Origin: Bolinopsis microptera
Lineage: Eukaryota; Ctenophora; Tentaculata; Lobata; Bolinopsidae
NCBI RefSeq assembly: GCF_026151205.1
Contig: NC_087081.1
Location: 744,001-808,000, forward strand
DNA length: 64,000 nucleotides
Direction of reading: 5' to 3'
Each line of letters opens with the position of its first letter. Within the stretch, counting starts at the first letter, position 1. The notes below the pieces were generated by a model. The model searched no databases. It was given only the letters and a program-made list of their open reading frames with translations, and was not told where the DNA came from. The position numbers were made by a program, and so were the translations under genes. Positions 1 through 41,362 of the stretch are shown one piece after another.

Positions 1-154
1 GTAAACGCAAGGAAATATTTTGTAGAAATGTTTAAAGATGAAAATATTGCGAGGGCGTGATAAAAGTAAATAATATAACGTATGACATATCCGATTAATG
101 ATTGATCTTGATTGGAAGCCAGTCGAAATGAAAGGCTCCCAAAAATAGGCCAGT

Positions 155-245
155 AAGAGACCACCTTGCCAGTAAAAAAACATTAAAAACAAGTAAAAAA
201 AACCAGTAAAAAATTAGTAAAAGACCAGTAAAAAACCACCTTGCC
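155..245 (-). repeat. Duplicated donor region of exon D
   Basis: On the minus strand the exon end and donor CTGGCAAG/GTGGT at 234-246 recur about 75 bp into the intron at 155-172, separated by repeated TTTTTTACTGG motifs. Confidence 0.6.
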
Positions 246-391
246 AGGAACTGTAATCTCGTTCACTAGTTTGCCCACACCTCCACACTCTACCACGAGG
301 TTATCAGCCGTGAGGGAGATAATATGCGCGATGTTTGTCATGTAGACTCCGTTATCACGTGCGTTTACCATTTCACTTGTGCTGCGCTGTC
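240..391 (-). CDS. NBEA: Neurobeachin-like exon D (mid-protein)
   Basis: Two bases plus 50 codons between acceptor GTCCCCAG and donor GTGGTT. The product contains RSTSEMVNARDNG, TNIAHIISLTADN and VVECGG. This follows the NBEA/LRBA segment RSHSTK.VMDFVNS.NVIFVHNTIHLISQ..DN...ACGG, which lies far downstream of LamG. It is on the minus strand, like N1-N5, but only about 300 bp from the plus-strand LamG exon P1. That is inconsistent with a single collinear gene; see findings. Confidence 0.78.
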
Positions 392-399
392 CTGGGGAC

Positions 400-688
400 A
401 CAGTTTGAGGTCTTATGTAATTTATAAATCAAAGAGATAGTGAAATTTGTGTTTTAATTGTATATTATACATTATATAATATTATGTTAAATTGAAATTT
501 AAGACTCATTCGAATTATACATTATTAATGACCTGTAGCATTGATTGAAACTGAAACGGCTCAAAGTATAATACCGTTAAACACAACAATTTCAATAGAA
601 TAATAACTGATTTAATTAAGCGATTAACCATTCAACTTCAAGGGACAGCCAGTCTGATTCTTATATTTTACTATTTTAAACATTCCAG
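400..688. other. AT-rich spacer between head-to-head exons
   Basis: No gene seen. The palindrome match ends within this stretch (about 430-508), so it contains the junction that places minus-strand exon D next to plus-strand exon P1. Confidence 0.6.
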
Positions 689-835
689 CCGTTTGACAAG
701 TGTTACATTGGGTCAAGTCCCAGAACGACGGTAGAGAGCTCTTTCTGTGGCCAGATGTCCAGTATCTCGTTATTTGGGGACTGTCTTCCTAACACCACCA
801 TCTCCGCTCTGTACAGACTTGGGGCTGACTACAAG
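689..835 (+). CDS. NBEA: Neurobeachin-like exon P1 (LamG-like)
   Basis: 49 codons, phase 0 at both ends, from PFDKCYIGSS to LGADYK. The acceptor is CATTCCAG and the donor GTGAGT. The motifs KCYIGSS, FCGQM and ALYRLGADYK match KCFIGSS / FCGQM / AI.QLGPGYK at the end of the NBEA/LRBA concanavalin-like domain. The CRE/E-box satellite begins directly at the donor. A degraded copy lies at 20,661-20,810 on the other strand. Confidence 0.88.
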
Positions 836-836
836 G

Positions 837-1140
837 TGAGTCATCATGACGTTACGTGGTGTGTGACGTCATGACACGTGGTGTGTGACGTCATGACACG
901 TGGTGTGTGACATCATGACGTTACGTGGTGTGTGACGTCATGACGTTACGTGGTGTGTGACGTCATGACACGTGGTGTGTGACGTCATGACGTTACGTGG
1001 TGTGTGACGTCATGACACGTGGTGTGTGACGTCATGACACGTGGTGTGTGACGTCATGACACGTGGTGTGTGACGTCATGACGTTACGTGGTGTGTGTGA
1101 CGTCATGACACGTGGTGTGTGACATGATGTTACGTGGTGT
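837..1140 (+). repeat. 22-bp CRE/E-box satellite in intron after P1
   Basis: About 13 units of TGACGTCATGACACGTGGTG plus TG. Each holds a palindromic CRE (TGACGTCA) and usually an E-box (CACGTG). Some units carry ACGTTACGTG instead. The array starts one base after the exon P1 donor, whose own sequence (GTGAGTCATCATGACG) resembles the unit. Confidence 0.9.
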
Positions 1141-1237
1141 GTGAAATCTTGGCACGAAACGTGTAGCGTCAAATCATTTACTTAGTAGTGGGAGGTGTCT
1201 CCTTGTGTGTGCTTTTAGTAAGTTCAATGTCATGCGA

Positions 1238-38247: not shown

Positions 38248-38416
38248 ACTAACCAGCTCCCTCACACTGGTCTTTACACGCAGGCTCCTCAGGTATAGCA
38301 CATTGTACTGGAATAATGACACGTAGTATATTAGTAGTGTCACTAGTGAGCAATGTGTGCTGCAGGTAATCAGGTGTGCAACTTGTGATGTGGAGGTGCA
38401 TGATGTCACTCTGCTT

Positions 38417-38711
38417 AAAGAGAGAGAGAGAGAGAGAGAGAGTGAGAGAGAGAGAGAGAGAGAGAGAGAGAGAGAGAGAGAGAGAGAGAGAGAGAGAGAG
38501 AGAGAGAGAGAGAGAGAGAGAGAGAGAGAGAGAGAGAGAGAGAGAGAGAGAGAGAGAGAGAGAGAGAGAGAGAGAGAGAGAGAGAGAGAGAGAGAGAGAG
38601 AGAGAGAGAGAGAGAGAGAGAGAGAGAGAGAGAGAGAGAGAGAGAGAGAGAGAGAGAGAGAGAGAGAGAGAGAGAGAGAGAGAGAGAGAGAGAGAGAGAG
38701 AGAGAGAGAGT
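38417..38711. repeat. (GA)n tract, about 295 bp
   Basis: Uninterrupted apart from one GT near 38,442. Homopurine mirror repeat. Confidence 0.97.
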
Positions 38712-38922
38712 AATAACTCTGAGAGTCTTGACATTAGGACTGGTTACTGGTTAGGGTAGCCAAATTAATCTGACTGCTGGTTAGTATGCCTTCTAATTAG
38801 AAGATAATCAGGATCAAACAGCCACATCATTACAACAGTGTTCCTCATTACTAACACCAATGTAACTAACTTGTTTACACGTGTAATGTATACCACCTGT
38901 GTATGTATACCACCTGTGTATG

Positions 38923-39661
38923 TATGTGTGTGTGTGTGTGTGTGTGTGTGTGTGTGTGTGTGTGTGTGTGTGTGTGTGTGTGTGTGTGTGTGTGTGTGTG
39001 TGTGTGTGTGTGTGTGTGTGTGTGTGTGTGTGTGTGTGTGTGTGTGTGTGTGTGTGTGTGTGTGTGTGTGTGTGTGTGTGTGTGTGTGTGTGTGTGTGTG
39101 TGTGTGTGTGTGTGTGTGTGTGTGTGTGTGTGTGTGTGTGTGTGTGTGTGTGTGTGTGTGTGTGTGTGTGTGTGTGTGTGTGTGTGTGTGTGTGTGTGTG
39201 TGTGTGTGTGTGTGTGTGTGTGTGTGTGTGTGTGTGTGTGTGTGTGTGTGTGTGTGTGTGTGTGTGTGTGTGTGTGTGTGTGTGTGTGTGTGTGTGTGTG
39301 TGTGTGTGTGTGTGTGTGTGTGTGTGTGTGTGTGTGTGTGTGTGTGTGTGTGTGTGTGTGTGTGTGTGTGTGTGTGTGTGTGTGTGTGTGTGTGTGTGTG
39401 TGTGTGTGTGTGTGTGTGTGTGTGTGTGTGTGTGTGTGTGTGTGTGTGTGTGTGTGTGTGTGTGTGTGTGTGTGTGTGTGTGTGTGTGTGTGTGTGTGTG
39501 TGTGTGTGTGTGTGTGTGTGTGTGTGTGTGTGTGTGTGTGTGTGTGTGTGTGTGTGTGTGTGTGTGTGTGTGTGTGTGTGTGTGTGTGTGTGTGTGTGTG
39601 TGTGTGTGTGTGTGTGTGTGTGTGTGTGTGTGTGTGTGTGTGTGTGTGTGTGTGTGTGTGT
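38923..39661. repeat. (TG)n tract, about 740 bp
   Basis: Pure TG/CA with no visible interruption. Preceded by two copies of GTATACCACCTGTGTAT. The Cys-Val and Thr-His open frames across it are artefacts. Confidence 0.98.
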
Positions 39662-40682
39662 AGAATTCCATGAGGTATTGTTCTGCACCAGCTGCTAGAA
39701 TACAATGTGGAGACTGGACAGACAATGTGGAGAGCGAAAAGATATTTGACATTCCATCCTTACATTTGAAATATCTAGGTCAGACCCGGTAGAGTCGCTA
39801 TTGTTTCGAGTTTATAAACCTGAGTTCTGGTGCGCACATTCCAACCTTTGGAACTTCACCACAACAATACATATATTTTAGAGATCTACATTCAGTTGGA
39901 AGTTAGGATTTAACGCAATATTTCTGAAGAGGAAAATCACGTTTGAAGATAATCTTTACTTTAAGTTACGAACGATGAATTCGAAAACGATGATATGTAT
40001 ACACTTATCTGGTTACGATATAGTCTATAAATATTAAACTCAGCTACAGCATTAAATTAAATTATTTCAAGTAATTAATTAAGTTGTTTCCACGTAAATC
40101 TGTGACCTTGAAAAAAAACCATAATTTTTCACTTTACAGTACCATAATCTTAATTGTACACACTGTACATACACACAACTTCAAAAGGAAAATGGAATAC
40201 GTTGCTAGGGGTAAACTGCAAGCACCTGTTGTATGTTACACGCAGTGCCTCAACATACAGTATACAATGTTGGTAGCTTTCATGTGGAGTCGTATTCCAA
40301 TAATACCAACATTTACATGTTTTTAAAAGTTAAAAGTTGGGGTTTCAAGATAAGAAACTGCACTCTACAGTTACTAGTATTTCAGCAAGACAGCTCGATC
40401 ATGTCCATATTAAAGAATATCTTGACGCATGCAATTTTATCTTGACGTATGCAATTTCACAAACTTTGAATGTCACCGAAATTCAATAACCCTTTGTTAA
40501 CAACAACAAACAGTAACGTGTGACATACTGACAAGTGACAAATAGTCTCATTGCTTGATGAAGAGTAAAAATAGGTATTAATACCAATCAATCATGTAAA
40601 GTTTGGCTACATTATCTTACGTAGGAGAAGAAGCAACAACAATTGTCTGACTAGTTACCTAATATACCATTTTCTAACTTAC
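39662..40682. other. Intron 2 sequence next to exon N2
   Basis: AT-rich, no gene or clear repeat seen. Confidence 0.55.
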
Positions 40683-40773
40683 CAGAGTGTAGATTGGAGT
40701 GAGAACGGACTGGTTGATACTTTCACCCTCAACTTTGACTATAGTACTGACAATACTTCGTACATATGCCAAA
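40683..40773 (-). CDS. NBEA: Neurobeachin-like exon N2
   Basis: 91 bases: one base completing the split codon of N1, then 30 codons from LAYVRSIV to PIYTL. The acceptor is TTTTCAG and the donor GTAAGT. The segment IVKVEGESINQSVLT lines up with the first conserved armadillo-like stretch of vertebrate NBEA/LRBA (LVEVGEVSNRDIVET) with matching hydrophobic spacing. It ends in phase 0, which fits the next exon 10 kb away. Confidence 0.7.
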
Positions 40774-40989
40774 CTGAAAACAAAAAAGTTAGATTATCAT
40801 ATCAAATCAAAAACAAGAACACACAGACCATTACTTATTTCTACATAAGAACACATTTAGTAATAATCAAGAACTTTAAAATATGATAAAACAAACTTTA
40901 AGTATCTCTTCATGCCAGTAGTATATACATAAAATTTGAACAGTCAATTTCAGAGAGAATTATATGCGGTACAATTCTACTTCGAAATA

Positions 40990-41288
40990 TTAGGAAATAA
41001 AGATAATTACCTCTCTGGAGGAATAGGAAATAAAGATAATTACCTCTCTGGAGGAATAGGAAATAAAGATAATTACCTCTCTGGAGGAATAGGAAATAAA
41101 GATAATTACCTCTCTGGAGGAATAGGAAATAAAGATAATTACCTCTCTGGAGGAATAGGAAATAAAGATAATTACCTCTCTGGAGGAATAGGAAATAAAG
41201 ATAATTACCTCTCTGGAGGAATAGGAAATAAAGATAATTACCTCTCTGGAGGAATGGAAATAAAGATAATTACCTCTCTGGAGGAATG
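40990..41288 (-). repeat. 33-bp donor-containing array after exon N1
   Basis: About nine copies. On the minus strand each reads ATTCCTCCAGAG, AG, then GTAATTATCTTTATTTC, which is the last 14 bases of exon N1 plus the first 19 of the intron. Each copy thus repeats the donor and also offers a CCTCCAG acceptor-like end. The unit length is a multiple of three, so open frames run through it. Confidence 0.92.
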
Positions 41289-41362
41289 GATTTGCGAAGT
41301 GGTTGTGTAGGGGGTTTGGGGGCGAGGGTGACCCGCTGAACACTTCCCTCAGAAGATGTCAT
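41274..41362 (-). CDS. NBEA: Neurobeachin-like exon N1 (start codon)
   Basis: Start exon of 29 codons plus two bases. It opens MTSSEGSV, is rich in Pro and Lys, and ends PPE before a GTAATT donor. An in-frame TAA lies five codons upstream of the ATG, which supports this start. The extreme N-terminus of neurobeachin relatives is poorly conserved, so identity rests on the phase fit (phase 2) with the next exon, which does align. The donor is followed at once by a 33-bp tandem array that repeats the end of this exon. Confidence 0.6.

Follow-up and report, generated by a model that had tools for sequence, protein, structure and literature searches.

The original description of mirages is reportedly that of Cañestro et al. 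(2002) in Nucleic Acids Research. According to the reports that followed, mirages are tandem repeats lying over exon-intron borders, both 5′ and 3′, in the amphioxus Adh3 and globin genes (PMC3087553), and many of their copies carry AG or GT (PMC3087553, PMC3902484). The globin mirage BflGb6 has six and three units in two haplotypes and a further one, BflGb9, is also found in amphioxus (PMC3087553); the set was extended to PGBD5 and troponin C, the PGBD5 repeats being confirmed with new data (PMC3902484). Reverse transcription-PCR (RT-PCR) showed that splicing is undisturbed, and the repeats were proposed as a route to new introns (PMC3087553); somatic instability has been reported for the Adh3 mirage. 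The Rogers model of intron gain invokes tandem genomic duplication of a segment bearing AG/GT (PMC3087553), and the potato RdRp gene is a case of intron gain by this route (PMC4974935). Here we analyse border-spanning arrays in the neurobeachin gene of the ctenophore Bolinopsis microptera, in a stretch of 64,000 nucleotides (NCBI RefSeq assembly GCF_026151205.1, contig NC_087081.1, positions 744,001 to 808,000, forward strand), hereafter the window. Plain coordinates are those of the window and C10 coordinates those of the contig; the left flank is the DNA left of the window, unseen by the first-pass annotation from which this work started.

As in the amphioxus mirages, the ctenophore tandem unit contains the exon-intron border, and donors and acceptors are both affected. 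Mirage length differs between haplotypes; the ctenophore array at the N1 donor has 9.0 copies in the window against 2.1 where the region recurs, in what may be either an allele or a duplicate. Unlike in amphioxus, eight crossed junctions fall in one gene, with up to about 92 copies, and the units measure 20-52 base pairs (bp), where those of amphioxus have 150-160 bp in the globins and 10-72 bp in Adh3. RT-PCR established normal splicing for the amphioxus mirages; for the ctenophore arrays it is predicted from protein homology. The ctenophore arrays resemble Rogers-model intron gain in being tandem duplications with splice signals that are masked by splicing, but that model duplicates an exon segment and creates a new intron, whereas here existing borders are repeated. 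The 22-bp arrays with CACGTG in the same gene are dispersed intronic satellites; the two border units searched are locus-specific. Our literature search found no paper on ctenophore minisatellites containing splice borders, and the accessible passages of a report on the ctenophore Hormiphora (PMC8527503) make no mention of such arrays. As far as these searches reach, the ctenophore arrays are mirage-type repeats, new to the phylum and unusually dense; the first-pass annotation had known of no described class, a place that the amphioxus mirages fill.

Arrays across the exon-intron borders of a neurobeachin gene

The joined P exons match Pfam DUF4704 (neurobeachin; E=3.8e-36) and the best protein match to the gene is Mnemiopsis leidyi P0122 (2688 residues, 82% identical); by these matches the long gene in the window is the neurobeachin orthologue of this ctenophore. 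Mapping of P0122 by tblastn traced a single minus-strand gene from 41362 (residue 1) past the left edge of the window to C10:721775 (residue 2688). Clean minus-strand matches cover residues 1-171 and 1427-2688, residues 327-624 match cleanly on the plus strand only (680-5984), and no match to residues about 691-1427 turned up in the DNA covered by this mapping. By this map the N and P exons belong to one gene, their opposite strands being apparently due to a palindrome described below.

Junctions were placed by spliced comparison with P0122 and are named below by exon or by P0122 residue. Of the 33 introns placed in polished sequence, 30 come from spliced alignment and three have hand-set borders (at the residue-1655 intron a hand-set residue-1660 acceptor took the place of the spliced mapping, and two further introns were hand-placed); together with the P6 donor, set by eye, they give 67 junctions. 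Arrays were called by Tandem Repeats Finder (TRF) and counted at a period of at least 6 and a length of at least 40 bp. An array lay across or within 20 bp of 18 of the 67 junctions. Eight were crossed, comprising three donors (N1, P6 and residue 1581) and five acceptors (P2, P3, P4, residue 1660 and residue 2334). Six of these cases are clear, with 14-32 bp of exon in the array, and two are weak, the array taking in 0-17 bp of exon at P3 and 3 bp at P4. At the further ten junctions, P1 among them, an array lay at most 20 bp away. TRF and spliced alignment thus bear out the earlier observation that junctions of both kinds are repeated in tandem in one gene, each with its own unit. No array lay wholly inside a neurobeachin exon in the 4366 bp examined.

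The N1 donor array (40991..41287, minus strand; 33 bp, 9.0 copies, 99% matches) follows the exon encoding residues 1-30 (41274..41362, minus strand, by tblastn and spliced alignment); the first intron base is 41273, and the unit combines the final 14 bp of the exon with the initial 19 bp of the intron. The P exons lie on the plus strand. Exon P1 (689..835) was found by tblastn, its donor being placed by spliced alignment and its start by eye from the CAG at 686-688. The P2 acceptor array (1238..1345; 50 bp, 2.2 copies, 100%) runs 32 bp into exon P2 (1314..1451), the last intron base being 1313. At P3 the array (1547..1618; 23 bp, 3.1 copies, 88%) reaches the acceptor at 1618 in front of the exon (1619..1781), and a second TRF row extends 17 bp into that exon. 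The P4 array (4000..4142; 20 bp, 7.2 copies, 96%) has its acceptor at 4139 and a unit composed of a branch-point-like CTAAC, a pyrimidine tract and AG, followed by exon P4 (4140..4323). Exons P2, P3 and P4 rest on tblastn and spliced alignment. These four arrays agree with the periods and copy numbers first noted, apart from a P3 unit of 23 rather than 22 bp. Exon P6 (5832..5979), found by tblastn with its acceptor by spliced alignment, ends by eye at GAAG|GTAGGG because its intron falls within the bad stretch; the polished part of its donor array (5965..6066; 42 bp, 2.6 copies, 90%) repeats 15 bp of exon plus 27 bp of intron.

Three crossing arrays lie in the left flank: the residue-1581 donor array (C10:742425-743507; 47 bp, 23 copies, 99%), the residue-1660 acceptor array with its hand-set border (C10:739974-741477; about 52 bp, 21 copies, 84%, plus shorter runs), and the residue-2334 acceptor array (C10:724810-728026; 35 bp, 92 copies, 98%). 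The unit of the last has an acceptor immediately before a donor, CCCCAG|GTATAG. The gene resumes on the minus strand with the exon for residues 1427-1477 (240..392, by tblastn), whose donor at 239 was placed by spliced alignment, before it exits the window; a loose 11-bp array (169..238, minus strand, 70% matches, by TRF) starts 1 bp past this donor. A twofold repeat listed earlier at a "D donor" could not be identified.

A raw-read-like palindromic stretch

Self-alignment and inserted-base rates on the palindrome, together with broken exon matches beyond it, indicate a raw-read-like, partly palindromic stretch at 6067..29505, assigned to neither strand, with its axis at about 10.6 kilobases (kb). 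Positions 619-6066 align in inverted orientation to 14153-20888, and 6552-14720 folds back on itself. Relative to the clean arm, mismatches in the inverted arm amount to 5-6%, and inserted bases per reference base to 0.21 for exons, 0.31 for introns and 0.18 for arrays. Exons have hardly fared better than introns, and not better than arrays, a pattern that indicates errors of the read and not evolutionary change. This noise was measured on the palindrome, and 21-29.5 kb is judged equally poor because exon matches are broken at 23.6 and 21.2 kb. PacBio continuous long reads (CLR), wtdbg, TGS-Gapcloser and pilon are described as the basis of the published B. microptera assembly (PMC10232365), and the stretch apparently resembles a gap closed with a raw palindromic long read. 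The palindrome and the 21-29.5 kb region apparently hide neurobeachin residues about 691-1427. Because the palindrome is so rich in errors, P7 and most P6 copies (7.3-9.6 kb, 11.7-14.3 kb) are uncountable; of the "many" copies claimed for the P6 donor only the polished ones can be confirmed, and the satellite claimed at the P7 donor is unusable.

Locus-specific units, dispersed satellites and a second copy

Whole-genome searches (264,652,675 bases, 232 contigs; very common words skipped) covered the N1 unit, the 35-bp unit and the 22-bp unit of the P1 intron. Hits of the 35-bp unit were confined to its own locus, and those of the N1 unit to its locus and the second copy of the region, so that neither is one unit at many loci. 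The P1 unit is: its family has at least 108 matches on at least 10 contigs (40 of the 179 candidates scored). The P1-intron array itself (844..1144, plus strand, by TRF) had been described as starting at the donor, and it starts 8 bp inside the intron; its distribution identifies it as a dispersed family, not one derived from the splice site. Satellites of 15-22 bp bearing CACGTG, several with GACGTCA, recur at 844-1144, 1852-1893, about 9930-10125, 31812-32295, 34378-34451 and C10:735904-736041. Ctenophores are described as carrying a CpG-bearing loop-anchor motif (PMC12221973), which we considered as a candidate source of these satellites.

The second copy of the region for the first 171 residues lies inverted on the same contig at C10:418083-426734, at a distance of about 320 kb, and its main aligned pieces are 89-97% identical to the window region; it may be an unpurged haplotype or a duplication. 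The deep-intron arrays at 32511-34184 (42 bp) and 37039-37773 (43 bp) are missing from this copy.

Border arrays in dynein genes

For comparison, 81 introns were mapped in seven dynein heavy-chain regions totalling 120 kb. A dynein heavy chain of this genome shares 94% identity with a protein of Mnemiopsis leidyi and 87% with another protein, the next named animal being at 66%; since a distant paralogue served as the reference, margins are low at some dynein junctions. One of the 15 arrays crosses a junction, where 1.1 is expected by the simulation set out below: a donor is covered by 12 copies of a 65-bp unit with 53 bp of exon. Crossing or lying within 20 bp was seen for 4 of the 15 (1.9 expected, p=0.048), and four other array definitions gave p values of 0.15-0.88. 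Border arrays therefore do occur elsewhere in the genome, and enrichment elsewhere is weak and not securely supported. By eye, two copies of a 49-bp unit were seen across another donor, a 17-bp unit with TGCAG|GTATG at a third donor, and a 44-bp array 7 bp before an acceptor; these cases stand outside the counts, the intron concerned not being mapped on both sides. Six TRF arrays fall wholly inside dynein "exon" intervals and are tentatively attributed to unmapped introns.

At a further locus, left out of the statistics (L038:5813-6928, that is C1:835813-836928), a 62-bp unit is repeated 18 times at 98%, with acceptor-like and donor-like sites about 40 bp apart in the unit and no exon tied to it. 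Dynein heavy-chain matches also occur in open frames of 3703 and 3357 codons, at C1:6101794-6103008 (minus strand) and C3:8952495-8953706 (plus strand), respectively, and many intron-rich paralogues adjoin.

Origin of the border arrays

We hold, with a probability of about 0.78, that the border arrays are mirage-type minisatellites, i.e. neutral tandem duplications of borders that are hidden by splicing and then expanded. A short tandem duplication would by chance straddle, or sit just inside, an exon-intron border; splicing would take the exon-adjacent copy (the first donor or the last acceptor), leaving the spare copies intronic; the mRNA would be unchanged and the duplication nearly neutral; and slippage or unequal exchange could then lengthen or shorten the array. 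Protein homology prefers the exon-proximal copy over its neighbours at N1, P2, P3, P4, residue 1581 and residue 2334 (margins at least 22), in a comparison limited to sites no more than 60-90 bp from where the matches end; the residue-1660 acceptor was hand-set.

Chance placement was modelled by collapsing every array to one unit and placing it at random (50,000 simulations). Once collapsed, 12 of the 18 array-bearing neurobeachin introns measure 141-265 bp, and in introns this short a random unit touches a junction often. Seven of the 31 neurobeachin arrays cross a junction against 4.9 expected (p=0.18), and the left flank by itself has 3 of 15 against 3.1; the frequency of crossing is close to that given by random placement in short introns. 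A null that moves whole arrays in present-day introns was set aside, since array length inflates chance contact; it gave 8 of 46 arrays reaching a junction against 8.8 expected, 17 of 31 against 8.8 (p=5e-5) within 20 bp in neurobeachin, 4 of 15 against 2.9 (p=0.26) in dynein, and 2 against 2.5 within 10 bp in dynein. A null barring exon overlap gave far smaller p values but is incapable of yielding crossing arrays and was not relied on.

Several points weigh against mirage-type neutral duplication. When arrays within 20 bp are counted along with crossing ones, neurobeachin has 17 of 31 where 8.0 are expected, a count reached in 0 of the 50,000 simulations, and this twofold excess is unexplained by neutral random placement. 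The use of the exon-proximal copy is predicted from protein homology, the copy numbers rest on one assembly, and a few mapped junctions are doubtful, such as that at residue 2565 with an alignment score of 29. The excess would be accounted for if junctions were mutational hot spots, where a border feature such as pyrimidine-rich sequence or transcription- or splicing-linked breaks starts amplification beyond random placement. It is similar under five array definitions and is present both in the window part (5 of 16 against 2.6, p=0.045) and in the left flank (12 of 15 against 5.4, p=1e-4), yet it does not extend to crossing arrays in either gene set, is significant in dynein under one definition only, and may in part be explained by low-complexity tracts at acceptors. 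We regard a hot spot as possible, though on the unlikely side; the border-anchored slippage proposed in the first-pass annotation may operate, the excess being twofold in neurobeachin and weak in dynein. A broader proposal takes borders to be favoured sites of minisatellite birth (on a roughly twofold excess within 20 bp in a single gene) and adds that acceptor-donor units such as the 92-copy CCCCAG|GTATAG could be spliced out no matter which copy is used; the arrays would then remove themselves from the mRNA, account for intron growth and nurse new introns. This we consider speculative and improbable as a whole.

That selection keeps redundant splice sites, as spares or for splicing regulation, had also been suggested, and seems scarcely credible. 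GT is kept throughout the internal copies counted in four donor arrays (N1, residue 1581, the dynein 65-bp array and the polished part of P6), with none of 80 cells changed, but other positions in the same arrays barely vary too: of the 270 internal AG/GT cells in the pooled arrays 3 had changed, compared with 42 of the 4932 cells elsewhere in the units (Fisher p=0.51). Preservation of GT or AG, claimed for each array, holds for the clearly crossing arrays, less so for P4, where two of seven copies read CAA for CAG and AG is the very part changed, and fails for some abutting arrays, such as C10:739149-739438 and C10:721872-721943, in which the tract is repeated without AG. Two of the eight crossing units are divisible by 3 (33 and 42), about as unconstrained intron DNA gives, and since the other six are not, use of other copies would shift the frame. 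AG and GT show no sign of being kept for use. Assembly error is likewise very unlikely as the source of the arrays, even though part of the window resembles an unpolished palindromic read in an assembly made from PacBio CLR. The counted arrays adjoin exons free of frameshift relative to Mnemiopsis; their units differ between loci in both length and sequence, at donors as at acceptors; they recur in dynein genes on other contigs; and amphioxus PGBD5 repeats of this kind were confirmed with new data (PMC3902484). Copy numbers may nonetheless be wrong.

Other features of the window

Nested antisense in the P3-P4 intron is a 189-amino-acid open frame (2673-3242, minus strand) with a sub-threshold VOMI match (22.3 bits, cut-off 25); nested genes are described as common in the ctenophore Hormiphora (PMC8527503). 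A 354-bp unit occurs in two identical tandem copies at 42020-42727, with an inverted relative, 95-96% identical, inside the same intron at 2208-2544. Long frames at 43261-45336, 50892-54873, 55004-58528 (minus strand) and 60177-61037 (plus strand) resemble, by eye, reverse transcriptases of retrotransposons without long terminal repeats (non-LTR).

Implications

Mirages were previously known, in the accessible passages of the two reports, from a handful of amphioxus genes (PMC3087553, PMC3902484). Finding six clear cases, and two weak ones, in a single ctenophore gene suggests that mirages may be widespread. Such arrays offer a natural test of how the spliceosome chooses among many near-identical sites, and they can mislead gene prediction because every copy resembles a true splice site.

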